The position numbers and the translations under genes are program-made. 63,702 bases of DNA, taken from IMG/VR virus record IMGVR_UViG_3300046500_000126, positions 1 to 63,702 of that record; one strand, written 5' to 3'. Every line of letters starts with the position of its first letter. The first letter of the stretch is position 1. This document shows, one piece after another, positions 2,634 to 46,892 of the stretch. A model generated the notes under the pieces. That model made no database searches and was not told the origin of the DNA. It saw only the letters and a program-made list of their open reading frames with translations. The stretch is from a virus.

Positions 2634-3574
2634 GCAATTTTGAGTGGTGGACGGCGGCCCTCAAGGGCACCAGAGGGCCGATCCACGACGGCGAGCCGAT
2701 GCACGGTTTTTATCGCCAGCGGCAGCGCGGCAAGGATCGCCGGACCGAGGGACCATACGAGCCGGTAGCTTACTGGCAGGACGAGGCCACGGGCGAACTG
2801 CGCTGCCAGGTTAACGGCAAGAGCATCAACATGCAGCGAGCGCTCGAAATGTGGCCGTATGTCTCCCGCAATCCGATCACGGCCGAATCCTACTGGCATT
2901 TCATGGACACTGGCAGATGGATGGACGGTGACGACCACGCAGCCGACTCCGCTAAGGGCCCCGAGATCGATCCCGAGGCCGACCCAGCAGGATCACTCGC
3001 CGCCGAGATCGCCGCCGCTAAGGCGGGCCTGGCTGCCTATGCGTCGATCGACAGCGACGAGCAGTCCGCCAAGGCGCAGACGCTTCGCAGCGCGCTCACC
3101 GGCTTGAGCGGGAAGGCGACGAAGGCCTACGAGGCATTGAACCGTCCTCTCCTCGACGAACAGCAACGGATCCGCAAGGTATGGTTTCCGCTCCGCGACG
3201 AGGCAGCGGACGGCGCCGACATGCTCCGGAAGGCAATGGGCAAATGGGAGGACGTGAAACGAGATAACGCGCGCCGCGCCGCTGACGAAGCCGCGAAGGC
3301 CGCGCGTGAAGCGGAGGAGGCGGGGAAGCCAGCCCCTCCGCCTCCTCCGCAGAATACTCCCGCGCCGTCGACCAAGATCAAGGGAGCGAGCGGCCGCGCC
3401 GCATCCGTCCAACTCAAAAAGGTCGTGGCTGCAATCGACATCGACAAGGCGTTCGCACAATTCCGCGACGATCCCGAACTTTATGCGTTCCTGCTTGACC
3501 TATCACAAAAGACAGTCACCGCAGGTTTCGTGGCGATCGGCGCCACCGTCGAGGAAAAAGCCGACATCCGATAG
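2630..3574 (+). CDS. Hypothetical coiled-coil protein upstream of RecT
   Basis: A 314-residue protein. The N-terminal quarter is tryptophan-rich (FEWWTAALKG; VAYWQDEATG). The middle (about 115-230) is Ala/Lys/Glu-rich coiled coil, followed by a proline linker (KPAPPPPPQNTPAPSTK). The C-terminal 70 residues (VVAAIDIDKAFAQFRD onward) form a compact domain of a type often seen next to phage recombinases. Position directly before recT suggests a partner in single-strand annealing recombination or a nuclease inhibitor. That is inference. Confidence 0.65.
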   Translation: MSNFEWWTAALKGTRGPIHDGEPMHGFYRQRQRGKDRRTEGPYEPVAYWQDEATGELRCQVNGKSINMQRALEMWPYVSRNPITAESYWHFMDTGRWMDGDDHAADSAKGPEIDPEADPAGSLAAEIAAAKAGLAAYASIDSDEQSAKAQTLRSALTGLSGKATKAYEALNRPLLDEQQRIRKVWFPLRDEAADGADMLRKAMGKWEDVKRDNARRAADEAAKAAREAEEAGKPAPPPPPQNTPAPSTKIKGASGRAASVQLKKVVAAIDIDKAFAQFRDDPELYAFLLDLSQKTVTAGFVAIGATVEEKADIR

Positions 3575-4994: not shown

Positions 4995-5384
4995 ATGGGT
5001 ATTTCATCAGACGGCGTGCTCTATTTTGGTTTCCAAGTCGGCGGCGATGGCGAGCGCCCAGAATGGATGGGCGAGTTCGAAGATTTCGACGACTGGCTTT
5101 GCAACAAGGCGGGCCTCACCGAGGACGCGCCGTGGGAGGAGCGCCAACCGATCATCCATGGCTGCCCAGCCGAATTGCAGATGTTCTGCTCCTACAATTA
5201 CCCGATGTTTGTTTTGGGCGTCCGCGGAGCAGAGCATCGCGCCTACCGTGGCGATATCGTCGAAATCGGGACTGCGCAGCTTGCCGTTGAGGACGAAAAG
5301 ACCGCCGCCTTCAAAGCGTGGTGCGAAACGAATGGCATCGAATATCAGGAACCGAAATGGCTCCTGTGCAGCATGTACGGCTGA
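4995..5384 (+). CDS. Hypothetical protein (129 aa)
   Basis: Preceded by a strong GGAGGAGACTGAC site inside the end of recT. It is acidic, with several Trp and Cys residues (EDFDDWLCNKAG; WLLCSMYG at the C terminus). No family was recognised. It belongs to the recombination block by position. Confidence 0.65.
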   Translation: MGISSDGVLYFGFQVGGDGERPEWMGEFEDFDDWLCNKAGLTEDAPWEERQPIIHGCPAELQMFCSYNYPMFVLGVRGAEHRAYRGDIVEIGTAQLAVEDEKTAAFKAWCETNGIEYQEPKWLLCSMYG

Positions 5385-13955: not shown

Positions 13956-16202
13956 CTACGGCACCACGCCCTGATCCATGTCGAACTCAGCGTTGAGCGA
14001 CCAGTTAGCATCGGTAGGGGAACCGTCTGCCCGGGCAAGATTGACTGCGCCCGTGAAAAACGTGGCAGGGTCGTTGAGCGTTAGCGCGCTGTCCCCACTG
14101 CAGGGTCCGGCAATGGGTCCGCCACCAGTGTCACATGTAACACCCGCTGGTGTGATGGTGCGTAGGCCCGCCTGTCGCAGATTAATGTTCCAGTTAAATC
14201 CCTGCACGACGGTCTGGTTCGGGGGGTACGCGAAGCCGGAGAAGTTCTGCCGCAGCGTTCCGGTGGCGCCAGTGTAGGCCTGCGTCACGTTGAATTTGAT
14301 GCTGTTGACCTTGCCCAGCAGTTTGATCGCAGAGAGCGCTGTGTTGATGCAAGGCGGGCCGCCGACACAGGTCCACGTCCGATTGGCATAAGACAAAATA
14401 GGTCGGGCATTCGGGGCTAAATTAAAATCGCCAGCGTACTGTGGATTACCTGAGCAGTTGATGCATCGCCAACTGGGAGCCTGAACGCGAATGTTCGCGG
14501 AAGTCGCGCCATTCATCGGCATCGTTGGGTAGCCACCCGGCAGCGTCGTTGCGATATTAACGAAGCCACCGCTTTGCGTCACGCCGGTGACTTGGAAAGC
14601 TGGAGCGCCAACACCTTGATAGGCGTTAGGGAAAATATTCGTGCCGGGGACACCCCAGCGTTCTTGCTCGGCTGTGTTGTATATGGTGCCGGCCCCTGTC
14701 CAAGTAACGCTGGCAAAGGTCAAATTGGTTAAATCGAAATGGGTTGCATCGACAACTGAAAGAATGAGCCCACCAGTGCACCCGGTGCCTGTGCATAGCC
14801 CGCTTTGATCAGCGACCGCCCCCGTCGACCATCCAGTAGTAGACGCAACTGTAACCCTTGGTTTTCCGGAACCATTATCGACGAACCCGGTCACGCTTTG
14901 ACTTATTGGATAGCTCCAGACACCACCGCTAATTGTGTAAAATGGCCACGATCCAATGCCACGTCCGGTTTCAGTGATGCCGAAACCTGATGTCTCATTA
15001 GTGACTACGCAATTCGTGCAGATCGCGCTGGTCGGTGTACCGTAGGCATAGGGACCTAACGTTAGGGTGGGCGTCGTAAGATTGTTGATAATTGCAACTT
15101 TTGGCGTTCCGTTCATATCCTGCGTGAGTGAACCGCCGGTCCAATTGAGCGTGTTGGTTGATGCACTCTGAAACATCAATCGCTTAAGCGTCGTACCGCT
15201 ATACGTCAGCGTATTGATGATCTTATCAACTTCGATGGCACAGTTAGTGCCAGTTGAATTGATCATAGTGAACGTGTCGGACTGCGTTGGGATAACGCAG
15301 GCAGCACCCGTCATCGTCACGTCACGTAGAGTGACGGAGCGACTGATATAAAAAGCCTGATTGGTGCTATCAATAGTGACGCCACGGATATCAACTTCGC
15401 CGCCCCATGAACTGTCAAGTTGGTACATGGTGGCGGGGCCGCCAGGATCAGCCTCACCAGACGTACCAGAAGCAAAATTAGGCCATGTTGATAGGTAGCC
15501 ATAAGTCAGAGGACGACTGATAGTGACAACACCGGAGCCTGCACAACTCGCCGTGGAAACAATTTGCACATAGTCGAAAAATTGAGGGTTTGGCGGATAC
15601 CCAAAAGAATTAAGATTCCCCTGCAAATCAAAACCTGTAACGACAGCCCAGCGCCCAGCCGTGAACCGTGAACAAAGAGCTGTGTTTAGTAGCGTGACCG
15701 AGGTCGCTCCCGCCGACACAGAGGAAAGGCGCGCACTGCATCCAGAAGCATCAGCCAAACCTCTATGACAAATACCAGCAGGAGTAGCTACACCAGCCGT
15801 TCCGAGTGATGGCTGGTTATTATTGCTAGTGAACGTGGCGCCGTAGCCCCATAGCCGGGCTTTCGTTAGTCCTGTGAACGTCGCAGCATTGCCTGTTGCA
15901 AACACACAATTGCCAGTGACGCGAAGTTCAATCAATTGGCCATTAGCTTGAGTTGTGGTAGCTTTAGCCCATGTGTTGAATGCAACAAAAGCCGCCGAAA
16001 CATTGGTTACGCCGTCACAGACAGCAGCGGGGCTAGCGCAGGTTCCGGCATCAAGGCCGGTTGCTATGCCTGTATTGATGTCGCAGGTAGTAACGGCAGG
16101 CTCAACTGTTTCGACTGCAGTCTGAAAAATAGCGAACGCTGCGATAGCTGCACTGGATATGCTAAACGTCGCAATGAAGGCCAGAACGAACTTCCTCAGC
16201 AT
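13956..16202 (-). CDS. Tailspike-like protein with Sec signal peptide (748 aa)
   Basis: The N terminus has a basic start, a hydrophobic core and an AxA end (MLRKFVLAFIATFSISSAAI), a clear Sec-type signal peptide. The rest is Thr/Ser/Asn/Gly-rich with repeating beta strands typical of beta-helix tailspikes or pectate-lyase-like fibres. Cysteines are unusually frequent for a phage fibre (for example CSGNPQY, CTGTGC, CVGGPPC), suggesting disulfides formed outside the cytoplasm. The start at 16202 gives a TGATG overlap with the glycine-rich gene; a TTG six bases upstream is the alternative. It is the last gene of the export operon and probably binds or degrades a host surface polymer. Confidence 0.7.
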   Translation of the reverse strand: MLRKFVLAFIATFSISSAAIAAFAIFQTAVETVEPAVTTCDINTGIATGLDAGTCASPAAVCDGVTNVSAAFVAFNTWAKATTTQANGQLIELRVTGNCVFATGNAATFTGLTKARLWGYGATFTSNNNQPSLGTAGVATPAGICHRGLADASGCSARLSSVSAGATSVTLLNTALCSRFTAGRWAVVTGFDLQGNLNSFGYPPNPQFFDYVQIVSTASCAGSGVVTISRPLTYGYLSTWPNFASGTSGEADPGGPATMYQLDSSWGGEVDIRGVTIDSTNQAFYISRSVTLRDVTMTGAACVIPTQSDTFTMINSTGTNCAIEVDKIINTLTYSGTTLKRLMFQSASTNTLNWTGGSLTQDMNGTPKVAIINNLTTPTLTLGPYAYGTPTSAICTNCVVTNETSGFGITETGRGIGSWPFYTISGGVWSYPISQSVTGFVDNGSGKPRVTVASTTGWSTGAVADQSGLCTGTGCTGGLILSVVDATHFDLTNLTFASVTWTGAGTIYNTAEQERWGVPGTNIFPNAYQGVGAPAFQVTGVTQSGGFVNIATTLPGGYPTMPMNGATSANIRVQAPSWRCINCSGNPQYAGDFNLAPNARPILSYANRTWTCVGGPPCINTALSAIKLLGKVNSIKFNVTQAYTGATGTLRQNFSGFAYPPNQTVVQGFNWNINLRQAGLRTITPAGVTCDTGGGPIAGPCSGDSALTLNDPATFFTGAVNLARADGSPTDANWSLNAEFDMDQGVVP

Positions 16203-17128
16203 CAACAATCACCTGTTGTGCACCGAACAATCACTATGCCAGAACCGCCGTTGCCGCCGACGCCAGTGTTGAACCCGCCGCCGCCGCCGCCGCCCGTGTT
16301 GGCAGTTCCCGCGACGCCTGTAGCCGCTCCGGCGCCCCCGCCTCCGGTGCCGCCAGTACCGCCTGTGCACCCAGCGGCGGTGAAACACCCGGCTCCACCG
16401 CCGCCCGCATAGGTAACGGCGGAGCCGCTTATGCTATTGCTGGTCCCGTTACCGCCCGGACCACCTGTCCCCGTCACTGGAGGCGGGCCACCTACAGCAC
16501 CGGCACCACCACCGCCGCCAGCGGCGAAGGGGCTGCCGTTAGTCGTCGAAAACCCGTTGGTTCCACCGTTGTTGCCCTGCGAGCCTGTGCCGCCGGTCGT
16601 GCCCGCGCCGCTTCGAAATCCGCCGCCGCCGCCGGAACCACCATTCTGACCATTCAAAGCGTTTCCGCCGCCTCCTCCCCCGCCAGTCGCGGTGACGAGA
16701 GCACCAAAAACGGAGTTGTTTCCGTTACCGCCCGGAGTGACTGAGTTCCCGGCAACACCTGTGCCGCCACTGCCGACCGTGACCGTCGTGGCTCCAGATG
16801 GGACGGAAACCGTCGCGCCAAGGCTGCACGTTGGGGTACCTTCAGTAGTGCAGTAGCCTCCAGCGCCACCGCCGCCCGAACCACCGCCACCGCCCCCACC
16901 CCCAGCGACAACGAGAATGCGACCTGTGAAGCCAGACGCACAGGTCAGCGTATCACTAGCGTTGAACGTGATGATCGTATCGCCGCCGGACGTTGACCGA
17001 GAGCCGCCCGTACAGGCACTGCCAGCAACGATGATATTTTGGTTGTAGTTGCTGTCACGCGATTGCCAGCCCGCGAGGGCCGGAAATGCGATTGCCGTTA
17101 TGGCAACCGCTATCAGCCAGCGTTTCAC
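16202..17128 (-). CDS. Glycine-rich fibre protein with Sec signal peptide
   Basis: GTG at 17128 overlaps the preceding stop (GTGA). The product opens with a signal peptide (KRWLIAVAITAIAFPALAG). After a ~60-residue linker it is dominated by glycine tracts alternating with beta segments (VPSGATTVTVGSGGTG) and ends GGSGIVIVRC. This is the glycine-rich sheet domain of phage tail fibre tips. In known phages such proteins bind receptors. An exported version is unusual. Confidence 0.7.
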   Translation of the reverse strand: MKRWLIAVAITAIAFPALAGWQSRDSNYNQNIIVAGSACTGGSRSTSGGDTIITFNASDTLTCASGFTGRILVVAGGGGGGGGSGGGGAGGYCTTEGTPTCSLGATVSVPSGATTVTVGSGGTGVAGNSVTPGGNGNNSVFGALVTATGGGGGGGNALNGQNGGSGGGGGFRSGAGTTGGTGSQGNNGGTNGFSTTNGSPFAAGGGGGAGAVGGPPPVTGTGGPGGNGTSNSISGSAVTYAGGGGAGCFTAAGCTGGTGGTGGGGAGAATGVAGTANTGGGGGGGFNTGVGGNGGSGIVIVRCTTGDC

Positions 17129-17937
17129 AGCTTGTATCCCCAAGACGTGACGGAGACGACGCCGCCAGTGCCGGGCGCGGCCGAGACAACCGCAATCGAG
17201 GTATTGGTGGCGGATGCCGGAACGCATGGCGAGAAGATCATCTCAGTGACGCCAAGTCCGGATGCATTCGGTGCGGTCCATTGTGTGAAATTGAGCGTGG
17301 CCGTGATCACGCCGGTAACTGTAGCATTGCCCGTAGCTGCCGCAGTCGCATTGGCTCGGATCGAGAAACCGCAGATGTAGGTGGTGACCGAGGCAGCCCC
17401 GGCAAGGGTTGCAGTCGTTGCTGCAGTCGTGCCGGTAGCGGTTGCCGTATAAGGGACCGCGCCTATCGGGTAGGGACCGGCCTGGTTAACCGGAAGGGGG
17501 GCCGTGACGCTCGGTGCGGTCAAGTTGCCGCCGGAGTTGAAACCGAAGTAGGTAGCATTGACCGGCACCGCTGCTCCAGTCGCACCATGGCCCCAAAGCG
17601 CATTGGCAGTCTGATTCGACGCGATGACGACCGGCGATGATGCCGCCATGGCCGCTTGGCCAAGAGCAGTTGTATTGGTGACAAAGGCATTGACGCCCGG
17701 CACCAGCACGGCGCCGGGAGACGTGCCATAAGCCGCCATTGCGCCGAGCGTGCCGCCGGCCCATGTCGGGATCGCCACGTTCGACTGACAATCATTTGCC
17801 CCGGTCGCCGCCTGCACCACGCTCATATTGAACGACGTGCCGGGGAAATCGTGCATCACCACCGGACCGGTACAAGCCGCGAAAGCGCTGGCAACGCTTC
17901 CAACCAGGAACGCCAGAATGAGGCCAAGCTTTTTCAT
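17125..17937 (-). CDS. Signal-peptide protein of tail/export operon (270 aa)
   Basis: Signal peptide MKKLGLILAFLVGSVASAFA followed at once by a mature start ACTGPVVMHDFPG. The mature part is Ala/Thr/Val-rich beta structure with an internal CGFSIRANATAAATGN segment, resembling virion decoration or fibre proteins. No named family. It overlaps both neighbours by four bases. Confidence 0.65.
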   Translation of the reverse strand: MKKLGLILAFLVGSVASAFAACTGPVVMHDFPGTSFNMSVVQAATGANDCQSNVAIPTWAGGTLGAMAAYGTSPGAVLVPGVNAFVTNTTALGQAAMAASSPVVIASNQTANALWGHGATGAAVPVNATYFGFNSGGNLTAPSVTAPLPVNQAGPYPIGAVPYTATATGTTAATTATLAGAASVTTYICGFSIRANATAAATGNATVTGVITATLNFTQWTAPNASGLGVTEMIFSPCVPASATNTSIAVVSAAPGTGGVVSVTSWGYKL

Positions 17938-18155
17938 TTCAGCGCTCCAATGAAATAGACGTCGTTACAGACATTGTTCAGATCAAAGATGCCCGTTGAG
18001 GCGCACCCAACCGGAGGCGTAATCGAGCCGCCCGGCGTCGTCACCCCCGGACCGTTAATGCCGCCGGGACAGAACCCGCGGCCGCATTTGTTGAATTGGG
18101 CATATGCGCCGACCGAGGCCAGCATGAGGGCGGCGGCCAGCGCGATCCGGAGCAC
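17934..18155 (-). CDS. Small secreted Cys-rich protein (73 aa)
   Basis: Signal peptide MLRIALAAALMLASVGAYAQ, then ~53 residues with four Cys (FNKCGRGFCPGG; VGCASTG; NNVCNDV) and Gly/Pro loops. The Cys pairs would be expected to form disulfides in the periplasm. Unknown function. Confidence 0.65.
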   Translation of the reverse strand: MLRIALAAALMLASVGAYAQFNKCGRGFCPGGINGPGVTTPGGSITPPVGCASTGIFDLNNVCNDVYFIGALK

Positions 18156-18156
18156 G

Positions 18157-18516
18157 TCAGTTGCCCCGTTCGCAGGAGAATCTGTCCCCGGTACCGGCTG
18201 ATATAATCGAGACCGTGCTTATCGCCGGCCCGTTCACGTCCTTGTAGAACGAGCCGCCGGCGGCCGTCGCCGATCCAGGTTGGAGCGTATAGGAACCAGC
18301 CCCGCAATTCGTGCCGGCGATCGTCGCCGCAACCCCGCTGATGGACATGCACATCAGATTCGCTGAGTTATTCATCAGCATCAGCTTGTTGACGTTGGAA
18401 CTCGTGAAGATCGTCTGCGCGGTCCCGCCCGTGGCAATCGTCCCAGAGCAGTCCGTGGCAAATGCCGCGCCGCACCACAAAACCGTAGCCAGAAACGCCG
18501 CGATGAATCGCATCAT
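18157..18516 (-). CDS. Small secreted beta protein (119 aa)
   Basis: Signal peptide MMRFIAAFLATVLWCGAAFA. The mature part is beta-rich with four Cys (ATDCSGTIA; NLMCMSISG; TNCGAGS; FSCERGN). The layout recalls phage fibre-associated proteins (GSATAAGGSFYKDVNG). It starts at the TAATGATG junction with the gene before it. Confidence 0.65.
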   Translation of the reverse strand: MMRFIAAFLATVLWCGAAFATDCSGTIATGGTAQTIFTSSNVNKLMLMNNSANLMCMSISGVAATIAGTNCGAGSYTLQPGSATAAGGSFYKDVNGPAISTVSIISAGTGDRFSCERGN

Positions 18517-18749: not shown

Positions 18750-18924
18750 CGACAGGCTCCTCCGACTTGTCATCCCAAGGCATTTTCGGCAGCGAAGGCT
18801 TGCGCGGCTTGTATCCGCCCTCCTTCTCACGCCCGCTCAGGCTGAATTTGCTATTGGACATCGCCGCCGCCTGGCGCATCAGAGCGCGTCGCCGGTCCTC
18901 TACAGGGTCATCCCGCCTGACCAT
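18736..18924 (-). CDS. Small basic hypothetical protein (62 aa)
   Basis: Helical, charged N-terminal half (DPVEDRRRALMRQAAAM) and a Lys/Pro-rich C-terminal half (REKEGGYKPRKPSLPKMPW). Overlaps both neighbours. Unknown. Confidence 0.55.
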   Translation of the reverse strand: MVRRDDPVEDRRRALMRQAAAMSNSKFSLSGREKEGGYKPRKPSLPKMPWDDKSEEPVDGGS

Positions 18925-19129
18925 CGCTCGCCCTCGCGTTCAGCGCGTCCACATCGGTCTGAGAGCGCCCTGTCTCAGCCGCCCATTCGGCTAAAATCTT
19001 CCGGGCCTCATCCGGACGCATCGCCAGCACAGCCGCCTCTATGCGGCTATTGGCCCGGCTGGCGCGCTGATTCGCCCGCCAACCCAGCCCGGCCTCTTTT
19101 GCGGCGCGGCGACGATCATGACGGCTCAT
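18908..19129 (-). CDS. Small helical hypothetical protein (73 aa)
   Basis: ATG 19129 lies inside the 3' end of the TatA-like gene (14-base overlap). A basic N terminus (SRHDRRRAAKEAG) is followed by helices (IEAAVLAMRPDEARKILAEW). It travels with tatA, so it may act with it, but nothing in the sequence shows that. Confidence 0.6.
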   Translation of the reverse strand: MSRHDRRRAAKEAGLGWRANQRASRANSRIEAAVLAMRPDEARKILAEWAAETGRSQTDVDALNARASDGQAG

Positions 19130-19265
19130 CAGCACCCATCCTCCGCACCTCTTTGATGGCCTTGCCGACATCAGCCATAAGGGAACTTACCATGCCTCGC
19201 CCAAATAGAAGAATGACGACAAGGATGACGATCGCCCAATGCCCCCACGACATCGCGCCCATCAT
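19116..19265 (-). CDS. tatA: TatA-family twin-arginine translocase subunit
   Basis: 49 residues with the full TatA plan. A short N-terminal membrane helix (about 6-21, SWGHWAIVILVVILLF) is followed by the FG hinge (FGRG, 21-24) and an amphipathic helix (about 25-43, MVSSLMADVGKAIKEVRRM), with a short polar tail. Alphaproteobacterial TatA proteins share the LLFGRG and LMxDVxKxIK blocks. TatA builds the pore through which TatBC-bound folded proteins cross the inner membrane. The ATG at 19265 overlaps the stop of a Tat-signal protein (ATGA), so enzyme and substrate are co-translated. A second ATG lies at 19262. No TatB or TatC is present, so host TatBC would be needed. A pinholin-like membrane role is an alternative. 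Confidence 0.8.
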   Translation of the reverse strand: MMGAMSWGHWAIVILVVILLFGRGMVSSLMADVGKAIKEVRRMGADEPS

Positions 19266-19795
19266 AGCTTCACCCGCTTGCCAGCGATCAGATCGATGGC
19301 CTGCTGGGGGCTGAATGTCAGGGACAGATCGGCATAATCAGATGCCTTTGCATCGGCTAGAACGTAAAGTTGGCCCGCATGATCAATCTCATAGCGGGAG
19401 CCAGGCGCTAGCGCGCCATCGAACTGCGAGAAGTCCGGAACGGCAAACGTCCCCTGTTCAACAGAGCCGCCATATCGCCGCATCGGACCATAAACATTCA
19501 TTTCGTCATCCCACCCCGTTTCGGTTTGGCCGATAGCCGCAGCCAGTTCCTTGTCGAAATCGTCACGCAGCAACCGGCCATCACAGGGAATAAAATCGAC
19601 GAGCCGCATGGGCTCGCCTCGAATATTCATGAGGCTAGTTGCCCGCACGACGCTAGGCGTAGAGAGGATCAGTCCGGTTGCAGTAACTGCACCGACACCT
19701 TTCAAAAAAGAGCGGCGCGATGGCTGCAAACCAGCATCGCCGTCCATAATAATCTCGCGGTGAGGTAAGATAAGCTTGCTGATGCGATCGAACAT
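19262..19795 (-). CDS. Tail-collar-like protein with twin-arginine (Tat) signal
   Basis: Residues 25-33 read PSRRSFLKG, matching the Tat consensus SRRxFLK. A weakly hydrophobic stretch (VGAVTATGLILSTPSVV) and a VRA cleavage-type end at about 50-52 follow. The mature part resembles the phage tail-collar domain: FIPCDGRLL (68-76), LAAAIG (84-89) and YGG...GTFAVPDF (108-122) line up with WLLCDGQ, LFAVIG and YGG..TTFNLPDL. GGAG 8 bases before ATG 19795 sets the start; the ATG at 19747 is an alternative that keeps the signal. It begins just after TerL and overlaps tatA. It would cross the membrane folded. The role of an exported collar protein is unknown. Confidence 0.8.
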   Translation of the reverse strand: MFDRISKLILPHREIIMDGDAGLQPSRRSFLKGVGAVTATGLILSTPSVVRATSLMNIRGEPMRLVDFIPCDGRLLRDDFDKELAAAIGQTETGWDDEMNVYGPMRRYGGSVEQGTFAVPDFSQFDGALAPGSRYEIDHAGQLYVLADAKASDYADLSLTFSPQQAIDLIAGKRVKL

Positions 19796-19796
19796 T

Positions 19797-21353
19797 TTAT
19801 TGGCTCCAGTGAGACCCTTTTCGCTTTCCGAGTTGTTCCCGACGATACACGACGTCCGGCTGCATTCCCATTGCGATCTGCTGGAAGGCATCCGCGCCAT
19901 GGTCAAACCCGTTCTTGGCCGGCTGCGCCATCCACTGCATCGTCGTTTTATTCCACGCGCGGGTGTAGTTATCGAGGCATTCGACCAGATCACCGGCGTA
20001 ATCCGAGCAGAACCAACTGTTATTGATGAACCGACGCCCGGCCTCGATCGAATCCGCCTTATCACCAACCCGGTCGACCACGATAAAATCGACGCCGTGC
20101 TCCGCCGCTACCTCTTTCCGGCTTTGCGCGGTGACCCCGGTCATATTCGACCAGTCCCGAGTATTCAGATCGTGCGGACCGTAATGCTTGCCATAGCGCC
20201 AGTTCCGCGTTTCCGCCCGCTGCTTGAGGATACGCAGCCCGTCCGCCAGGCCAGCGCTATCGCCTCGAGCGAAGTCGATATGCCGATGCCGAACGCCATC
20301 AGTCTGCATAAACCCGATGGCCAGGTTGCCATCCATCCCAAGATCCCAATATGTGTGGACCGGACGGCTATCGTCGTAAGGCACCGGATATCCAACGCGC
20401 TTATCCCGCCGCGCGGCGTTCATCTCGTTTTTCCAGTACGCACCCTCGAGCGAAGCGAAGAAGCATTCATCCGGCGTCGACGGATGTTCCGCTCGCATGT
20501 CATCAGGGCCGAGCGTTTCCCGGACCTTGACATACCAAGCCTGCTGCTCGCCATCCGTGACGATGCCGTGTTTGACCCGGAGCTCGTCGAAATACTCCCT
20601 CATATCGCCCGGGATGAATACCAAATTGATCGGCAGCCGGTTGGCCGGGTTCATGTGCCAGCCGTAGAAGTGGAGGCGAAAGTCACGCTGGGTAAGCCGC
20701 TGCCGCGACGCCTGCAACTGCTCCCCAGCCTTCACCAGATCAAAGAACTCGCCCGACGTCCCCTTAGCCGTCGATTCCACCCATATCTTGCCGTTGATCG
20801 GCACCGATTCGATGGTGCCCGTCTTGATTTCCTTGGCGATCAGCGGCGACTTGGCGGATATCGGCCCATATTCCGAAATATGCAGCAGTTGCGGAGTATC
20901 ACCGCGGTAGGACGTTCCGGCGACGATCTTTGAGCCGTTTCGCCAACGCAATTCCTCTTGATTGTCAGTGACGAGCGGCATCCCCTGACGCAGCGATGCC
21001 GGCATGCGCTCATAGGCAAATTTGGCCATCGCCAGCTTGGCCTTGGCATCGTCCAACGTCTGATCAATGATGCCTGCCGTGGTATTCGACGCAAATATGC
21101 AGGCATCCAGCATCCGGATAGAAATGAACGTCGAAAACCCGAGCTTGCGACTTTTGAGGATCGTATCCCGGAACCACTCCCGCCCGGCATAATGCGCCTG
21201 CGCCGCGTTGAGCCGGAATGGCACGGGCAAACCGTCCGCGTTCTTAATGGCATAGAGATTATTGAGGCGGAAAGTCCGGTCAGCCAGTTGTGCCTTTGAG
21301 GCTTTCCATTCCCGGGTATCGCGGACCGCCTCGAGCGCTGATGCTTCACTCAT
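19797..21353 (-). CDS. terL: Terminase large subunit (ATPase and nuclease)
   Basis: 518 residues. The ATPase half has a variant Walker A, KSRKLGFST (67-75), and Walker B ending LLHISEYG with catalytic Glu at 161. The nuclease half has HTYWDLGMDG (Asp 337), YGPHDLN (about 391) and GFDHGADAF near the C terminus, giving the RNase H-like metal site. It pumps phage DNA into the prohead and cuts it. The ATG at 21353 overlaps the preceding stop (TGATG). Its place 25 kb from the portal, directly before the export operon, is unusual. Confidence 0.92.
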   Translation of the reverse strand: MSEASALEAVRDTREWKASKAQLADRTFRLNNLYAIKNADGLPVPFRLNAAQAHYAGREWFRDTILKSRKLGFSTFISIRMLDACIFASNTTAGIIDQTLDDAKAKLAMAKFAYERMPASLRQGMPLVTDNQEELRWRNGSKIVAGTSYRGDTPQLLHISEYGPISAKSPLIAKEIKTGTIESVPINGKIWVESTAKGTSGEFFDLVKAGEQLQASRQRLTQRDFRLHFYGWHMNPANRLPINLVFIPGDMREYFDELRVKHGIVTDGEQQAWYVKVRETLGPDDMRAEHPSTPDECFFASLEGAYWKNEMNAARRDKRVGYPVPYDDSRPVHTYWDLGMDGNLAIGFMQTDGVRHRHIDFARGDSAGLADGLRILKQRAETRNWRYGKHYGPHDLNTRDWSNMTGVTAQSRKEVAAEHGVDFIVVDRVGDKADSIEAGRRFINNSWFCSDYAGDLVECLDNYTRAWNKTTMQWMAQPAKNGFDHGADAFQQIAMGMQPDVVYRREQLGKRKGSHWSQ

Positions 21354-21874
21354 CACGCCACCCTATCGAATAGCGGCGCACCGTGCATTGACCGCGCCAG
21401 AGCGGGATGCGGTGCCGGCATAGCCGCAGGAAGTAGTTGCAGGGCCAGCAAGCCGCCCTTTGTGTCACCGACATCGACGAACCCAGCCTTGCGATATGTC
21501 CAGCCCCAGACATCGCGGCCGCGAACAATCGTCGGCTTGACCTTCTTCCGGTTAATAAACGTGATCATCCCCAACCCTGGCGGATCGCCGTAATAGGCGC
21601 GCGTGGCCGCTACAGCCTCCCGGATCAACTCGGAAGCCACGCCAGCGCCCTCAGAGCGGAACGCCGAACACACCCACGCGCCGGCCCAAGCGTGCTTTAC
21701 CCACTCCGCTTTCGGATATGACGTCACCCAGAAGCCGCGCCCGCAGTCCGTGACGAATACGCAGCAACTGCCCGTGGGGGCGAACTGCGGAGAGCCGATT
21801 TTCTGCCGGTTATAGTGTCTGTCAGCGAGTCGGGCGGCGGCAGGATCTGCTCGATGGGATGCGCACCATCGCAT
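21353..21874 (-). CDS. GNAT-like protein of phage type
   Basis: 173 residues with ADRHYNRQKIGSPQF near the N terminus, WAGAWVCSAFRSEGAG in the middle and a C-terminal WTYRKAGFVDVGDTKGG. These are the blocks of a phage family with an acetyltransferase (GNAT) fold often encoded near terminase genes. Whether it acetylates anything is not known. No strong ribosome site was seen upstream of ATG 21874. Confidence 0.65.
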   Translation of the reverse strand: MRWCASHRADPAAARLADRHYNRQKIGSPQFAPTGSCCVFVTDCGRGFWVTSYPKAEWVKHAWAGAWVCSAFRSEGAGVASELIREAVAATRAYYGDPPGLGMITFINRKKVKPTIVRGRDVWGWTYRKAGFVDVGDTKGGLLALQLLPAAMPAPHPALARSMHGAPLFDRVA

Positions 21875-25480: not shown

Positions 25481-25708
25481 TCAGCCAGCCGGCGGCAGCG
25501 GAGAATTGAACTCGTCAAGGTCACGATCAGTCTGCGCGCGGATGGCGTCGATCTGCTCTTTGGTGACCTTGCCCGCCTTGGCATCTTCGGCCAATTTCTT
25601 CATCTGCTGTATGCGGTCGATCACATTCCCGCCGCCCTCGATGATAGAGGGAAGCGCCGATAGGCCCTTGGCGAGCATTCCGAGGATTTCTTGCGTGCTG
25701 ATCTTCAT
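25481..25708 (-). CDS. Small helical hypothetical protein (75 aa)
   Basis: All-helical and charged (IQQMKKLAEDAKAGKVTKEQ) with an N-terminal amphipathic segment. Lies between the lipoprotein and the spanin-like gene. Unknown. Confidence 0.55.
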   Translation of the reverse strand: MKISTQEILGMLAKGLSALPSIIEGGGNVIDRIQQMKKLAEDAKAGKVTKEQIDAIRAQTDRDLDEFNSPLPPAG

Positions 25709-26112
25709 GGCAGGCTCCCGACGTTCATTCCCACAGATGCAGCGGACGTTTTCAGGCTACCGTACAGGCCTACCAACTGGTTATAGGCCACCACCGCATT
25801 CACCTGATCATTATTGTCGACGAACGAGCGCAGCCGCGCGATCACCGGTTTTGCCTGTATTGTATACGGTTGAATAATCTCAATGTTCCTGCGGCAATTG
25901 ACGTCGGCGGTTCCCGCGATACACGCACGCCGATAGGTAAGCAGGATCTGCACGGCCGTATCAAAGCCGAGCTCAATCTGAGCCTCCATCGCCGGCGTAA
26001 CGGGGTTATTGATCGTCGCCGTGGCAAAATGGGCAACGTTCTGCAGCGTTTGAAGTTGCGCGCAGCCTCCGAGAGCGAGGACGACGGCCATAGATGCGAG
26101 AATGCGGCGCAA
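25705..26112 (-). CDS. Lipoprotein of the lysis region (o-spanin candidate)
   Basis: Signal peptide with lipobox: RILASMAVVLALGGC, lipid-modified Cys at 17. The mature 118 residues are helical with two further Cys (RRACIAGTADVNCRRN). The length is above that of classical Rz1 but within the range of lone outer-membrane spanins. Its place just after the holin-like and endolysin genes supports a role in outer-membrane disruption. Not shown by motif. Confidence 0.6.
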   Translation of the reverse strand: MRRILASMAVVLALGGCAQLQTLQNVAHFATATINNPVTPAMEAQIELGFDTAVQILLTYRRACIAGTADVNCRRNIEIIQPYTIQAKPVIARLRSFVDNNDQVNAVVAYNQLVGLYGSLKTSAASVGMNVGSLP

Positions 26113-26561: not shown

Positions 26562-27350
26562 CTATGCCTCGTTGCGTGAAATCTTTCCGTCACTTTGTAC
26601 GATAGGAAGGCTGGAAAAGCCAATTTTGGCGGGAACCGGTACGCCAGCCGGCCACCAGAACCCCTTATTGAGCCTCGTCTTGGCAAATGGCTTGATATTG
26701 ACGGCATCGGACTGATTCCCGCCCAAAAGCATGACGTTGCCATGTTGATCTGCCCCGACCACCATTCCGATGTGACCACCACCGTTGCGCACCATCGGCG
26801 CAAAGGCACCGACCGCAGGCCCGACCAGTTTGACCGATGGCCACTGCCCGGCGAAGTCAAGCGCCCATAGTGATTCGGTGCCCTTGAGCCCGGCCCTCGT
26901 CAGGCAGTGGTTCGCAAAGAGCGCACACCAAGGAATCGAGTCGTGGGTATAGGTTTTGGCTATATCCCCGCCCTCGTCCTTCGCCCAATCAATGATGACG
27001 GAATTATCCTTGACGCCGATGGTTTCCTTGACGCCGATCAGTTTGAGCCCGGCCTGAAGCCAGAGCGGCCGTTCGACCTCGGCGATCGGCGCCGGCGGCA
27101 CTGACAATTCACCAGCCAAAGCCTTATCGATAGCCACCGCCGTATCGTTGCCCACCACTCCATCGACCGGATCACATCCGGCCCGCTTCTGGAAATCCTC
27201 CACCGCAGTATCGGTGCCGTTCCCAAAATATCCGGTGCCGCTGAGTTTGTAACCGAGCCGCGCAAGGGCCGTCTGTATCTCCTTGACCGTGGGGCCCGAC
27301 GACCCCAGCCGATAAACAGTCCCCTTGGGTATCATCGATGCGATAGACAT
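26562..27350 (-). CDS. Endolysin: peptidoglycan-binding plus NlpC/P60-like amidase (TIGR02594 type)
   Basis: Residues ~10-80 form a PG_binding_1 domain (LGSSGPTVKEIQTALARLGY). Residues ~95-235 form a TIGR02594-type cysteine peptidase with Cys 142 in IPWCALF, His 193 in GGGHIGMVVG and Asn 212 in LLGGNQ as probable catalytic triad. It would cut peptidoglycan at lysis. No signal peptide, so a holin is needed. I chose ATG 27350 because GGGAG lies 6 bases upstream; an in-frame ATG at 27374 would overlap the fibre gene. Confidence 0.85.
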   Translation of the reverse strand: MSIASMIPKGTVYRLGSSGPTVKEIQTALARLGYKLSGTGYFGNGTDTAVEDFQKRAGCDPVDGVVGNDTAVAIDKALAGELSVPPAPIAEVERPLWLQAGLKLIGVKETIGVKDNSVIIDWAKDEGGDIAKTYTHDSIPWCALFANHCLTRAGLKGTESLWALDFAGQWPSVKLVGPAVGAFAPMVRNGGGHIGMVVGADQHGNVMLLGGNQSDAVNIKPFAKTRLNKGFWWPAGVPVPAKIGFSSLPIVQSDGKISRNEA

Positions 27351-27360
27351 GACGCTCTCC

Positions 27361-28563
27361 CTATTGATCGCCAAAGCAAGCGAGATCGAATGCTATATCC
27401 TGCAATGCAAATGCCGTGCTGAGACCGATCACCGGCACCACTCCGGCAGCTTTGGTCGCTGTATCGACTCTGGCCGCGCCACCTGCCACCGCTAGGGCAA
27501 TCGTGCAGACATAAGAGGCAGAAGAGAATGACGTCGTTAAATTTACGGCATAAGTGCCAGTGCCGGAACGGGTCACGGACGTCACGTTATACGCCGAAAG
27601 GATCGTGCATGGAGAACCGCTGCAAGTAGATACGGATACGAACGCCTTGCTTGCACTTGGATGCCGCTGTTGAACCGAGGGAGTCACCGCCGTCGTCGTC
27701 GAGGTGGCAGTTTCCTGATCCGCAGCCGTGGAGGCCGTGACCGTGACGGTACCCGTGGTAGTGATCGGTCCACCGGTAGCGAGCCCCCCCGTGGCTACGT
27801 TCGTCACCGTTCCTGTGCCAGCGGCAACCCACGAAGGAACCCCAGAAGCATCCTCTTGCAGGATCCGCGTGCCAGTATTGTTGCCGGCCAAGCAGACCCA
27901 ATTCGTGCCGTTGTAATAGATCAGATCGCCCGCCCGGGTCGGCGGGCAGTTGTGCGCCGCATTCTGTAAACCCTGCTGCGTGCCGGAGCCGCTGCCACCT
28001 CGAGCCACGGCCAGCGTCCCAGTCCATCCGAGCGTGATTGAGGCGGCATTCACCAAGGCATTCGCAGGCGTCCCGCCGAGCGTCGCCGTCACGTTCGTAT
28101 CATCAGTTTTCGTCAGCGCAGCACCGGCACCCCACGCCGGACATGCCCCAACCCCGCCAGAACGTAAGACTTGGCCCGTAGCCACGTCCGCGATGCGCGA
28201 AAGCGTCGTGGTTCCCGTCGCGCAGATGATATCGCCCACCGCATAGACATTCAGGCCGGTCCCCCCGCCGACTACGCCAAGCAACTGATAGAGCGGATCC
28301 GCACCGGTGCCGGCCGAGACCCACGGCAGCCCAACCGTCGCACTCGGGGCAACGATCTGCCACCCAGACGCGCCGCGCTCAAGGATGGCTCCGCGTGTGG
28401 AACCGAGCGCCCGATCAATGATCGAGGTCAGAGTGGAGGACTGCGCTGGTGCGCGCGAGGCCCCGCTATTGCCCCACACCTGCCCGGCACCAAGCTGCGC
28501 CTGAGCAAGCGCCGATCCGGTCAGCACCAACCAAGCGAGACCAATGCCTAAGATTCGCCTCAT
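27361..28563 (-). CDS. Tail-fibre-like protein with Sec signal peptide (400 aa)
   Basis: Signal peptide RRILGIGLAWLVLTGSALAQ. The mature part is a typical fibre: Thr/Gly/Ala-rich beta repeats, segments such as LGWTGTLAVARGGSGSGTQQ and YYNGTNWVCLAGN, and a C-terminal beta domain with four Cys (STCSGSPCTILSA; ASYVCTIALA; DLACFGDQ). It lies 10 bases before the endolysin start. Fibre sequence plus signal peptide is the unusual point. Confidence 0.7.
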   Translation of the reverse strand: MRRILGIGLAWLVLTGSALAQAQLGAGQVWGNSGASRAPAQSSTLTSIIDRALGSTRGAILERGASGWQIVAPSATVGLPWVSAGTGADPLYQLLGVVGGGTGLNVYAVGDIICATGTTTLSRIADVATGQVLRSGGVGACPAWGAGAALTKTDDTNVTATLGGTPANALVNAASITLGWTGTLAVARGGSGSGTQQGLQNAAHNCPPTRAGDLIYYNGTNWVCLAGNNTGTRILQEDASGVPSWVAAGTGTVTNVATGGLATGGPITTTGTVTVTASTAADQETATSTTTAVTPSVQQRHPSASKAFVSVSTCSGSPCTILSAYNVTSVTRSGTGTYAVNLTTSFSSASYVCTIALAVAGGAARVDTATKAAGVVPVIGLSTAFALQDIAFDLACFGDQ

Positions 28564-28997
28564 GCCGACACCTCATAGCCATTGCCGGCCAGATTCGGAG
28601 TAAACGTCAACGACATGAAGTCGCTCGACATCGGATAGGTGGTCAACCCGTCAATTGTCTCAGCTCCTGACCGCAGAACCGATATCGCGTTGGTCGACGC
28701 ATTGCCGGTAATATCCTTGATCGTAACCGGGCGGCCGCTACGCGCCCCGGAGGCACCCATCTGGATTGATACGGGCCCGCCCGATGTGTCCACCTCCAAC
28801 AGATAATCCGTCGGCTGCACCGTATAGGGCGACATGGCAAACGTAACGGATTTAGGTATTACCGCCGCCGGGGATGAAGATGCCGTCTCAATCGCATGCT
28901 GCACGTCGATCGCAGTTATGCCGGGCGAGGGCGCATAGGATATATTCCGCGCCGCCGCGATCGGATTAATCCTCAGATCGGTTTGAACGACTGACAT
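28560..28997 (-). CDS. Fibre-associated beta protein without signal peptide (145 aa)
   Basis: ATG 28997 overlaps the preceding stop (TGATG). Beta-rich with VTIKDITGNASTNAISVL and GAETIDGLTTYPM, motifs that recur in phage fibre and baseplate proteins. No signal peptide, although both neighbours have one. Confidence 0.6.
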   Translation of the reverse strand: MSVVQTDLRINPIAAARNISYAPSPGITAIDVQHAIETASSSPAAVIPKSVTFAMSPYTVQPTDYLLEVDTSGGPVSIQMGASGARSGRPVTIKDITGNASTNAISVLRSGAETIDGLTTYPMSSDFMSLTFTPNLAGNGYEVSA

Positions 28998-30076
28998 CAC
29001 AGAATCCGCAGGTAGGGAATGAGACCGATCGTCGGTGGAATGAATGGCGTGGCAGCCCCGCTCGTATTGTTCGAGGTAGCTGTGCCGGCCGCCGTAACCG
29101 ACGAGTTAACAGTGATAACCGCGCCATTAGGCCACGCAGTCGCAAGTGTCCCGCCGGGTGTGTAGCTAAAAAGTACGGCCCCCGAGTTGGCACTGACCAG
29201 ATTTGCTGTGTTGGATGTGACCGTGACAGGAGATGTAATGCCTGTAGGCAATTGAGCCAATGAAATAGCCCGACTCTCCAACCCGTTCGCACAGGTTGCC
29301 CCGATCGACGTCATGGCAGTCCCACAGCCCGCGCTCGCGCTCGTTAAGCGATTGGCTGCCGAAGCGTTGAGCGTATCCAGCGCCGCCGCTACCCGCCCCC
29401 GCATATCGATGATGGCAAACTGTCCACCGGGACACGCACCACTCGCCGGAGAACCCTGCTGCACCCAATACGTCGCGTAAGTCGTCGTCGAGATGCACTG
29501 TCCGGAGGGAGCAACAAAATTACTGCTTGGCGCAGTCGGAGACGTCGACCACAGGATCCCACCGAGCGGTGTTCCCGTGTTCCCATATCCAGCCTCGAGC
29601 AGCCACGCGCTATTCGCCGCGCTAAACGCAACCCGATAGGGCGAACCAGCGACCAAAGTTCCGGCTGGTATCGTCGCTCCTGTAAGCCAGAGCGGATAGG
29701 TATTGCCGCCATCCACCTGCAACGTCGGCGCCGCGCCGCTATTCGCATGCGCGATGAACGAAATCATCTGACCGTTGGATGGGGTGGGGTTGACGCCCTC
29801 CGACGTCGCCAGAGCATAAGCAGTTGCCGTGCCGGTCGTCGTGTTCGTGGCGCTGATATCGTTCCGCCATGCGGCCAGAACCGCCATCATGGCCCTAGCG
29901 CTATCGTTGATTGACGAGGGGGCTTGGCCCTCGGACCAATTGATCGAAGGATCCGCCGTGGCATTGGTGGAGGCCGTAGTCGACCAAGACCAAATAGCCG
30001 CGCCCACAGGCTGCGCGCCAGCTGCAATGAGCAGGAGACCCGCAATAAATAGAAACTGCTTGATATTCCGGATCAT
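28997..30076 (-). CDS. Collar/tail-fibre protein with Sec signal peptide (359 aa)
   Basis: Residues 1-31 form a signal peptide (KQFLFIAGLLLIAAGAQPVG then AAIW). Directly after comes the standard N terminus of many tail fibres (WSTTASTNATADPSINWSEG and SINDSARAMMAVLAAWRNDI), and further on a collar-like segment (GGILWSTSPTAPS ... GQFAIIDMRGRVAAALD). In other phages this sequence starts at the protein N terminus, so the signal peptide looks added. GGGGTG before ATG 30076 and the upstream stop at 30078 fix the start. Confidence 0.8.
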   Translation of the reverse strand: MIRNIKQFLFIAGLLLIAAGAQPVGAAIWSWSTTASTNATADPSINWSEGQAPSSINDSARAMMAVLAAWRNDISATNTTTGTATAYALATSEGVNPTPSNGQMISFIAHANSGAAPTLQVDGGNTYPLWLTGATIPAGTLVAGSPYRVAFSAANSAWLLEAGYGNTGTPLGGILWSTSPTAPSSNFVAPSGQCISTTTYATYWVQQGSPASGACPGGQFAIIDMRGRVAAALDTLNASAANRLTSASAGCGTAMTSIGATCANGLESRAISLAQLPTGITSPVTVTSNTANLVSANSGAVLFSYTPGGTLATAWPNGAVITVNSSVTAAGTATSNNTSGAATPFIPPTIGLIPYLRIL

Positions 30077-30077
30077 T

Positions 30078-30803
30078 TTACACCCCGATTCCATAAGCCT
30101 TGGCCAGAGCCGCGGCGATCTGTTGTGATTGGCCCATCATTGGCTGGGGCATCTGGATATTTTGCAGCGGCGCATATTCAACCGCCTTTGGCGCGGCCGC
30201 TGGCGCGCCCTGTGCCGGGCCGGTCAGCGATGATGCCAGTTTGTCGAGGACGGACGGAGCCGACGCGCCAGGCTCCGCCGTCGGCGCATCCGAAACGGTC
30301 GACGTCGGGTTGATCGGGCTTACCGGATCTGAGGGGATCGCCTTGGACGCCAAGGCACCCACCGGCGCATCGACGCCGAGCAGCCTAGCCGCGTTCCCCA
30401 TGTGCCCGGTCATCTGGGAATTTACCTTATCCGCGACCGTGCCGGGGGCACCGCCGTTTGCCGCATCGCTGCGATTATAGAGGCCAGGCGAACCAGCATT
30501 GATCGTGGAATAGATATCCATAAGCCCCATCCCGGGCTTAACGCCGCGATCGCGCAGGAAACTCTCGACCGCCTGCATCTGCTCCGGAGCAGTCTGGCCT
30601 TCCTTCACTCCGTATTTAGCGCGCTCCTCGGGCCCGAATTGGATCAGACCTAGATAATTGCCGCCCTTGCCGCCCCAGAGGCTGGGATCGAACTTGCCGC
30701 CGGTTTCGTATGAGATGGCCGTCCCTATATGCAGGGGATCAACGCCGAGCCGCTTCGCAGATGCTATGATCGCGTCAGCAAGTTCGGGGTTCATGGAGGC
30801 CAT
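30078..30803 (-). CDS. Virion-associated transglycosylase-like protein (241 aa)
   Basis: Residues ~8-90 resemble a lysozyme/transglycosylase fold, with ISYETGGKFDPSLWG (candidate catalytic Glu in YETGG), NYLGLIQFGPEERAKYG and DRGVKPGMGLMDIY. The rest is Pro/Ala-rich and helical. Placed after the large ejection proteins, it probably helps DNA ejection by opening the cell wall. Start 30803, or 30794 as alternative. Confidence 0.65.
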   Translation of the reverse strand: MASMNPELADAIIASAKRLGVDPLHIGTAISYETGGKFDPSLWGGKGGNYLGLIQFGPEERAKYGVKEGQTAPEQMQAVESFLRDRGVKPGMGLMDIYSTINAGSPGLYNRSDAANGGAPGTVADKVNSQMTGHMGNAARLLGVDAPVGALASKAIPSDPVSPINPTSTVSDAPTAEPGASAPSVLDKLASSLTGPAQGAPAAAPKAVEYAPLQNIQMPQPMMGQSQQIAAALAKAYGIGV

Positions 30804-40964: not shown

Positions 40965-41438
40965 TCAGAACGTGCCGTTGATCGATTGCCAGTTTGCCGC
41001 AGCAACGCAGGTGAAAATCTTGGCGTTCAGATTGACTACCGAGATCGCGGTATTCGCGGAGAGCAGGTTGATCGCATCGCCAGTGTTCGGGAACACGTTC
41101 AGCGCGTCCGTGGTGTCGGCATTGATAACCCACACCTGGGCGCCGATTCCCAGCGTTGCACCATTCGGCGAACTGTTGGCACCGCAGAAAGGCAGTTTCA
41201 CGCTGTCGGCCGCCGTCGCCACCACCGTCACACGGTTATAGGCCGAGTTCAGCAGTACCGCGCTGGTCTGGCCACCGCCTGCAAAGGCCGTGATCGCATT
41301 CGTCACGGAAATCTGGGTGAAACCAACCGAATCAACAGAGTTCGTGCTGAGCGTCGTGGTCCCGGTAATATTCACCGCATACGCGGCTCCGAGGAAGCTG
41401 GCCACCGCCAGAAAGGAGAGCAAAAGGCGCTTGAGCAT
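40965..41438 (-). CDS. Signal-peptide protein between connector and capsid genes (157 aa)
   Basis: GAGGTTGTGACC precedes ATG 41438. Signal peptide MLKRLLLSFLAVASFLGAAY. The mature part is beta-rich (ITGTTTLSTNSVDSVGFTQI; RVTVVATAADSVKLPF) like virion decoration proteins, with two Cys. An exported protein in the heart of the head module is unexpected. Confidence 0.65.
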   Translation of the reverse strand: MLKRLLLSFLAVASFLGAAYAVNITGTTTLSTNSVDSVGFTQISVTNAITAFAGGGQTSAVLLNSAYNRVTVVATAADSVKLPFCGANSSPNGATLGIGAQVWVINADTTDALNVFPNTGDAINLLSANTAISVVNLNAKIFTCVAAANWQSINGTF

Positions 41439-41473
41439 GGTCACAACCTCGTTGTGGATTGAAACGAGCGGAA

Positions 41474-42371: not shown

Positions 42372-43487
42372 TTAGAACGTGGAGGCTGCGGCGTAGGTCG
42401 AAACGACCACCGTGCCGTAGTCCACCGAGTTGTAACGGGTCTTTTTCAGACCGTGGATGGTGAGGGCGGAGATTTCGAGCCGGCGCTTGTGGTCGAAAAG
42501 CTCCTCGTTCCAGGTCAGCTTGGTCGGGCCGTTGTCCTGGCCGAAACCCATCATCGCCGCCTGCGCACCGAGCAGAACCGCCCGCTTGACAGTCGCAACG
42601 TCCGCGCCAGCCGCCGATACGCCGTTCGTGACGTCGAAGGCCTGGCGGAGGATCACGCCGTTATAGATGCCGATGGCGCCCGAGAAGATCGGATTTCCGG
42701 TCTGCTTGAGGCCCATATAGGCCATCTTCTGCAGATCCTGCCACTGCCCCGTCGAGGTATTCCGGCGCATCGCCGTCACCTGATAGGGGTGGAGGTACAT
42801 GCAGAACATATCCTCGAGCGTGTTGTTGAAGTCGGAACGCCCGCCTTCACGCATCGAGGTGCCCTTGTACTGGATCGGGCGAATCATCGGCGAGGCCGTG
42901 ATGGCCAGTTCCTTCGCGGCGTCGATCAAACCCAGCGTGAACGTGTCCGCCGAGGTCAGAAGGTCGTCGGAGGCGCGTCCGGACTGCCGAATGACGCGCG
43001 TGGCCGACGGCGCCGTGACGGCGTTGAGGCCGGTATAGCGCACGTCAGTCTGCGGCGTATATCCGCACACCTGATTAAAGAACTCGACCGAGTAGCGCTT
43101 CGCGTACCAGTCGCGCAGCCGGCCCTTGGCCGTATCGCGCAGATCCCACGGAATACGCTGCTGATCGATCGTGCGGCGCGACTTGACGCCTACCACGCCC
43201 ATAAGCTCGTTGATCACAAGCGCATCGGAATAGGTGGTCAGAGCCTCGCCATTGCCTTCCGCGAGTTGGTTTTCGGTGAAACCCGCCTGCGCCAGCTGCA
43301 TGACGATGGCATAAGTGATCTGATCACCCGGGCCCTTCGACAGCGCGTTCTGCAGGTGGATGACGGAATTCTCGTCGGAGCCGATCAAAGGACGGATAGC
43401 GGTATACTTGAGCGCTTCCGTTTCGAGGACTCGCGCCCAGAGTTTTACCGCAAGGGCGTCATTTTGCGGGAAATTGGTAGTGGACAT
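42372..43487 (-). CDS. Major capsid protein, N4-gp56 family
   Basis: 371 residues with the pattern of the N4-gp56 major capsid family: LWARVLETEALKYTAIRPLI near the N terminus, GDQITYAIVMQLAQAG, a central DMFCMYLHPYQVTAMRRNTS and a C-terminal VSTYAAASTF. It would form the HK97-fold shell. The gene has its own promoter (43668-43696) and an untranslated leader of about 170 bases. This suggests separate, strong expression. Confidence 0.9.
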   Translation of the reverse strand: MSTTNFPQNDALAVKLWARVLETEALKYTAIRPLIGSDENSVIHLQNALSKGPGDQITYAIVMQLAQAGFTENQLAEGNGEALTTYSDALVINELMGVVGVKSRRTIDQQRIPWDLRDTAKGRLRDWYAKRYSVEFFNQVCGYTPQTDVRYTGLNAVTAPSATRVIRQSGRASDDLLTSADTFTLGLIDAAKELAITASPMIRPIQYKGTSMREGGRSDFNNTLEDMFCMYLHPYQVTAMRRNTSTGQWQDLQKMAYMGLKQTGNPIFSGAIGIYNGVILRQAFDVTNGVSAAGADVATVKRAVLLGAQAAMMGFGQDNGPTKLTWNEELFDHKRRLEISALTIHGLKKTRYNSVDYGTVVVSTYAAASTF

Positions 43488-46668: not shown

Positions 46669-46892
46669 GTGACCATGCACCAATATTTGCAGTTCGGAGC
46701 GTGAAGCACCGTGCCATAGCAACAGCGCAGCACTGGCGCGACCGGATAGGTCGACGGCGCACGAACAGGCCCGACGATGGTACGGAACAGTTCCTCATCA
46801 ATCCGTTTAGCCATGGCTGCGATAACCTCTGGCGGCACATTAGGCAAATCGTCCGGCCAAATTATCTCGGTTCGAAACGAATAATCCGTCAT
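46665..46892 (-). CDS. Hypothetical protein next to portal (75 aa)
   Basis: ATGA overlap with the portal stop. Helical middle (VIAAMAKRIDEELFRTIVG) and a C-terminal segment with four Cys (VLRCCYGTVLHAPNCKYWCM). Unknown. Confidence 0.6.
   Translation of the reverse strand: MTDYSFRTEIIWPDDLPNVPPEVIAAMAKRIDEELFRTIVGPVRAPSTYPVAPVLRCCYGTVLHAPNCKYWCMVT

Follow-up and report, generated by a model that had tools for sequence, protein, structure and literature searches.

A phage gene pair encoding a TatA-family protein and a predicted twin-arginine substrate, with similar pairs in other viral contigs

Bacteria transport folded proteins through the inner membrane with a machinery of which TatA is one component. 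The phage genome described here has a gene for a TatA-family protein that shares an operon with, and overlaps, the gene of a protein with a twin-arginine (Tat) leader. Both are inserted directly after the gene of the terminase large subunit (TerL), and pairs of the same kind were found in five further, unrelated viral contigs. TatA and a Tat-leader protein seem to form a phage module that recurs and has apparently not been described before. The DNA analysed, called the window throughout, is a complete IMG/VR record of 63,702 bases with 59% GC and no terminal repeats, and its late genes lie on the minus strand. The features referred to below are as follows.

13956..18516, minus strand: downstream series of five genes, each with a Sec-type signal peptide (18157-18516, 17934-18155, 17125-17937, 16202-17143 and 13956-16208), from a heuristic signal scan; context and not part of the pair, with similar genes in relatives
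18908..19129, minus strand: small conserved gene with the start MSRHDRR, right flank of the insertion; follows other inserts directly in L002 and L003
19116..19265, minus strand: tatA-type gene, 49 aa (PF02416; NCBIfam TatA models)
19262..19265, minus strand: ATGA, stop of the Tat-leader gene over the tatA start, read from the sequence
19262..19795, minus strand: Tat-leader gene, 177 aa (PF10518, TIGR01409)
19523..19597, minus strand: tail-collar-like core, residues 67-91 of the 177-aa protein (PF07484, sub-gathering)
19640..19795, minus strand: N-terminal leader, residues 1-52, with SRRSFLK at 19700-19720 and the h-region
19797..21356, minus strand: TerL gene, flanking the insertion on the left (match to PHROG 2 'terminase large subunit', 8e-19; relatives 72-98% identical)
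19804..19807, minus strand: GGAG, Shine-Dalgarno-like, within the 3' end of TerL, read from the sequence
25705-26112: spanin candidate, lipoprotein-like, elsewhere than the tatA pair
26562-27374, minus strand: endolysin, late region
42372-43487, minus strand: major capsid protein, late region
46889-49240, minus strand: portal, late region

The Tat-leader gene follows TerL at once, its ATG lying 1 nt past the TerL stop and 8 nt after the GGAG, and tatA comes next. The TGA of the Tat-leader gene shares 4 nt (ATGA) with the ATG of tatA, whose stop is in turn overlapped by the start of the MSRHDRR gene. A preliminary description of this DNA had placed the pair directly after TerL, in agreement with this spacing and with the PHROG 2 match; the region is a late one for packaging and tail genes. 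It had also called the two genes fused by overlap; the overlap exists, but the genes are separate and there is no fusion. The pair is an insertion after TerL that is absent from close relatives: in those with a TerL 72-98% identical (L002, L003, L065 and L074), the interval between TerL and the MSRHDRR gene or its counterpart is occupied by an HNH-like gene or by one encoding 86 aa instead, and no TatA was found in their contigs. A different Tat-leader protein, scoring over the curated cut-offs, is encoded a little further on in L074 (contig G400). Together with the other inserts of the relatives, this protein indicates that the neighbourhood accepts cargo and that a Tat substrate arrived there at least twice. 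The site downstream of TerL is a hot spot for inserted genes, and HNH-like genes of the homing type lie at or near it (L002:7556-8194, L065:8566-9207, L074:8556-9107 and L003:8035-8646).

The window TatA has the sequence MMGAMSWGHWAIVILVVILLFGRGMVSSLMADVGKAIKEVRRMGADEPS. It matches PF02416 (TatA_B_E) with E=4e-5 and 23.2 bits, above the cut-off of 21, as well as the NCBIfam models PRK00720 (8e-15) and TIGR01411 (1e-12), both under their own cut-offs, which were derived from proteins longer than this short one. Two profiles were made from cellular loci (28 TatA and 23 TatB sequences), and they assign it to the TatA type and not the TatB type, with 61.9 bits against 18.4. Judged by its sequence, the protein is a TatA-family homologue, which bears out the TatA plan ascribed to it before. 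In E. coli numbering, with the window residues counted from the second M, a gapless alignment has the polar position 8 (H8), the F20-G21 hinge and D31 kept. The equivalent of E. coli Phe39, a residue present in 28/28 reference cellular TatAs with a tatC neighbour, is Val, a point that the preliminary description had overlooked. At its helix end, the protein reads VRRM at 39-42, like alphaproteobacterial TatB, and its C-terminus is short. In E. coli, F39A stops Tat transport, the inactive protein trapping assembled complexes (PMC10092561), and it is reported to be dominant negative (PMC13186574). Given the change at this residue, an independently working TatA cannot be assumed. The TatA2 of C. 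jejuni (57 aa), which has neither Phe39 nor Gln8 and seems to depend on the main TatA (TatA1), is nevertheless still called TatA (PMC4148689), so that the loss of Phe39 lowers the claim to independent function and not that to homology. The nearest cellular TatAs found are ~50-55% identical and mostly alphaproteobacterial, the first coming from a Sphingomonadaceae MAG, and the phage host is therefore probably an alphaproteobacterium. PHROG 29532 was set aside, since cellular TatAs also match this family and no function is assigned to it.

The 177-aa protein starts with a perfect SRRSFLK leader followed by a hydrophobic stretch, and both PF10518 (2.7e-5) and TIGR01409 (1.7e-5) match over their cut-offs, confirming the twin-arginine leader noted earlier. 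The AxA-type cleavage region described along with it did not hold, since the cleavage candidate, picked by eye, reads V-R-A. Up to 61% identity over 43 residues connects this leader with that of a cellular ABC-type binding-protein-like protein. The protein is a predicted Tat substrate that would be exported. Its mature part, previously likened to a tail-collar domain, does contain a collar-like stretch, but PF07484 reaches 20.8-22.4 bits against a gathering score of 24 (3.7e-4 for the whole protein, 1.2e-4 for the mature part), and it may be called weakly collar-like only. A single-sequence AlphaFold2 model, made without an alignment, had a pLDDT of 32. No homologues of the protein were found in phages, plasmids, IMG/VR or one genome-contig scan, and weak matches in 385 genomes of one class were rejected, since they were either Tat leaders belonging to binding-protein-like genes or frames open by chance.

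The first TatA scans of IMG/VR, with alphaproteobacterial patterns, were empty, and broader profiles were needed to find further cases. Two broader TatA alignments, run as TatA-only searches that ignored the neighbours, yielded seven more viral TatA loci: L100, L101, L104, L105, L106, L107 and L108/L109, the last with one shared TatA. All six of the seven that were checked with Pfam pass (4e-11 to 5e-22), L106 being read from its sequence, and the polar residue at position 8 and the FG hinge are kept in the viral TatAs read here. A Tat-leader gene lies beside the viral tatA at 6/8 loci, namely in the window, L100, L104, L105, L106 and L107, while a heuristic covering ~5 kb on each side gave no such neighbour for L101 and L108. 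Outside the window, the pairs are arranged as follows.

L100: two leaders, MNRRHFLQS and MNRRRFLHL, before tatA, with a short gap
L104: MNRRKFLQL, after tatA, with a GTGA 4-nt overlap
L105: MTRKDFLKR, an RK variant, after tatA, with a longer overlap
L106: LDRRDMLRR, after tatA, with a GTGA 4-nt overlap
L107: MNRREFLGV, after tatA, with an ATGA 4-nt overlap

Including the window, four pairs (with L104, L106 and L107) share a 4-nt overlap. Outside the window, the second L100 protein and that of L104 score above the TIGR01409 cut-off; the other leaders were read from the sequence and a heuristic. With only 12 leaders found by the leader heuristic in 717 kb of viral sequence, chance adjacency to tatA is rare. 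When tatA positions were permuted, 0/200,000 trials reached five paired loci (p<5e-6), the test having used the five-of-seven pairing counted before L106 was recognised. As the TatAs are of different bacterial types, the gene order varies and the substrates are non-homologous, the pairing probably arose repeatedly. The five further viral contigs strengthen the earlier claim of a TatA linked to a Tat substrate. Residue 39 is Met in L105 and Leu in L107 but Phe in L100, L104 and L106, so that Phe39 is changed in 3/6 paired viral TatAs. A TatC gene is present neither in the window nor in 12 other contigs, which may be fragments.

These contigs belong to phages, as their genes show: a P22-like portal (3.8e-116) and capsid (3.8e-68) in L100, a capsid (7.7e-17) in L104, TerL (2.6e-15) and capsid (9.5e-16) in L105, and TerL (6e-73) in L107. 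The L106 contig (16.7 kb) is phage-like from RusA-like and small-terminase-subunit-like reading frames only. In L100 (2454-7413), TerL is split, its N-part ending at 3293 and its C-part starting from ~6613, with ~3.3 kb in between that include the Tat and TatA genes; no Rfam family indicating an intron was found at this split. The contig of the L101 TatA, which lies near 5001-5159, is AT-rich and encodes long acidic proteins that look prohead-like; it also has a polynucleotide-kinase-like gene. TatA matches in a 'phages' collection were rejected, as they seem to be host tat genes, either on bacterial contigs that were misfiled or in prophage-prediction records that lack annotation; AFYI01000004, AGRM01000003 and CAKLQF/CAKLQH are apparent bacterial chromosome contigs filed as phage, and their TatA matches are false phage matches. 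MT837480, an unverified 6.8-kb fragment, was likewise not accepted as a case.

Each mature substrate was aligned locally with the major capsid protein of its own phage, and significance was determined by shuffling.

L104:5138-5734, Tat-leader protein against own capsid: shuffle p 6.6e-9, strong
L105:3721-4209, Tat-leader protein against own capsid: shuffle p 9.5e-5, moderate
L100:3878-4261, Tat-leader protein against own capsid: shuffle p 7.8e-3, weak
L074:10025-10363, Tat-leader protein without TatA against own capsid: shuffle p 1.4e-6, and 7e-8 with the window capsid protein

In L074, residues 26-76 of the Tat-leader protein match the major capsid protein of the clade (aa 260-317 of the window protein encoded at 42372-43487). 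The capsid proteins of foreign phages were at chance level against the L104, L105 and L100 substrates. The best of 1,203 reading frames was the own capsid protein for L104 and L105, and the capsid proteins of the clade for L074. For the L100 substrate, the own capsid protein was not the best reading frame, and the first Tat protein of this contig matched PHROG 283, its own capsid family, with E=0.077. By these comparisons, a resemblance between the substrate and a segment of the own-phage capsid can be assumed with good confidence for L104 and L074 and with moderate confidence for L105, while there is a hint of it for L100. Between the window substrate and the window capsid protein there was no match (shuffle p=0.14). 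No match was seen for the proline-rich L107 substrate among the capsid proteins tried, no convincing one for the L106 substrate within its own contig, and no clear capsid match for the Tat-leader-like protein of L070/L077.

Sec-type signal peptides, which are unusual on proteins expected to assemble in the cytoplasm, occur on many late tail-like or glycine-rich proteins of the window (13956-18516, 27361-28563, 28997-30094 and 40965-41444), and the same richness is found in the relatives G001, G002, G392 and G399 and in the unrelated G403, there including a 2,078-aa protein. A Sec-signal tail-like gene also lies close to the pair in L104. This wider late region rich in Sec-signal tail-like proteins suggests that several virion-like proteins are exported in this group, of which the Tat pair is one example. 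Phages use Sec for lysis proteins and for filamentous assembly.

The TatAd and PhoD genes of Bacillus subtilis are linked, and this system has its own TatC, whereas no TatC was found in the viral contigs checked. We know of no substrate gene to which E. coli TatE is linked; TatE is chromosomal, while the window TatA is phage-borne. Substrate-linked TatAs are established in bacteria, with NosZ-specific TatE and PhoD-specific TatAd (PMC4361764), the latter resembling the window in having a substrate-specific TatA, and tatA2 sits in the C. jejuni nap operon (PMC4148689). In TatE/NosZ of Pseudomonas stutzeri and tatA2/nap of Campylobacter jejuni, as in the window, an extra small TatA-type protein is tied to a Tat substrate (PMC4148689, PMC4361764), but these systems are bacterial and serve redox enzymes, whereas the window pair is carried by a phage, has genes that overlap and involves a virion-like substrate. 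E. coli TatE is a short TatA paralogue described as a functional hybrid of TatA and TatB (PMC5777986), comparable to the window TatA with its TatB-like VRRM helix end. In one figure on a circular marine virus, TatC is annotated alongside a P22-like portal, so that, as in the window, a Tat component is annotated in a viral genome with terminase and portal; this annotation is automated and stands in the figure legend, where neither a TatA nor a substrate pair appears (PMC10564846). An orphan tatA adjoins a NosR-like gene in Rhizobium sullae (L006:4004-4195), which agrees with the NosZ/TatE precedent, and a conjugative plasmid of Sinorhizobium meliloti carries another one immediately behind a very large gene (L007:3995-4168), with no tatB or tatC nearby. 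Neither a study of phage TatA nor a phage Tat pair was found in the open-access literature searched, in line with the preliminary statement that no such phage had been described, although absence is not proof.

We lean, at little better than even confidence, towards a phage-carried, substrate-linked accessory TatA, which together with the host TatBC would export a virion-like protein or dock it at the membrane. The Tat-leader protein and TatA would be made together from their coupled genes, presumably late in infection. The leader would dock on the host TatBC receptor, and the phage TatA would enter the TatA assembly, probably mixed with host TatA. The folded virion-like protein would then cross the inner membrane or stay anchored in it, and its purpose outside the cytoplasm may be display, exclusion or an envelope effect. 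In this way, the phage may boost the host Tat capacity, as had been proposed. An accessory TatA acting with host TatBC is the best supported explanation because no TatC is present in the window or the 12 other contigs and because bacteria use such an arrangement. The Phe39 changes, the lack of a substrate homologue and the L074 leader protein without TatA count against it. A bolder reading, rather unlikely as a whole, is that unrelated phages repeatedly combined a Tat leader, joined to a virion-protein piece, with a coupled TatA, giving a two-part device that docks virion parts at the host Tat translocase to export them, anchor them or trip the membrane; the piece would often be from the own major capsid protein, and collar-like in the window.

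The Phe39 changes would fit a helper subunit as well as an inhibitor, in which the altered TatA acts as dominant negative in host complexes while the leader protein fills the receptor and host Tat export is jammed. The residues at this position (Val in the window, Met in L105 and Leu in L107) and the F39A phenotypes in E. coli (PMC10092561, PMC13186574) speak for such jamming, yet three paired viral TatAs (L100, L104 and L106) keep Phe39, the bulky V, M and L are unlike Ala, and poisoning Tat alone requires no dedicated substrate; we consider it unlikely. Somewhat lower still is the probability of a captured host gene without a phage role, a passenger or decaying moron. The close relatives do without the cassette, no homologue of the pair was found and the TatA C-terminus is short, as expected for a passenger; however, the window TatA is intact and coupled and shares only ~50-55% identity with the closest cellular TatAs found, and unrelated TatAs show this linkage too. 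The five Sec-signal genes next in the window, the similar genes in relatives and the one near the L104 pair would suit a role in surface display or lysogeny, with the exported collar-like protein and the neighbouring Sec-signal tail-like proteins coating the envelope and affecting superinfection or adhesion. This proposal, to which we give only a small probability, is compatible with the accessory TatA and bears on its purpose alone. Least probable is a role in permeabilisation or lysis timing, where a docked and perhaps untransportable substrate recruits TatA and the inner membrane is depolarised as by a pinholin. The gene position is late, and the capsid-like substrates of related cases might bind large assemblies, but the endolysin and the spanin candidate lie elsewhere in the window, no lysis gene adjoins the pair, and the viral TatAs have ordinary TatA features and no demonstrated holin-like property; the pinholin idea of the preliminary description found no positive evidence.

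In the papers searched, a phage with its own Tat subunit and matched cargo appears undescribed. If the accessory TatA is real, phages would tune the export of folded proteins and place virion-like cargo outside the cytoplasm, and natural short TatAs with an altered Phe39 would be at hand for testing models of TatA assembly. The docking device, if true, would give Tat a role in infection that is new.
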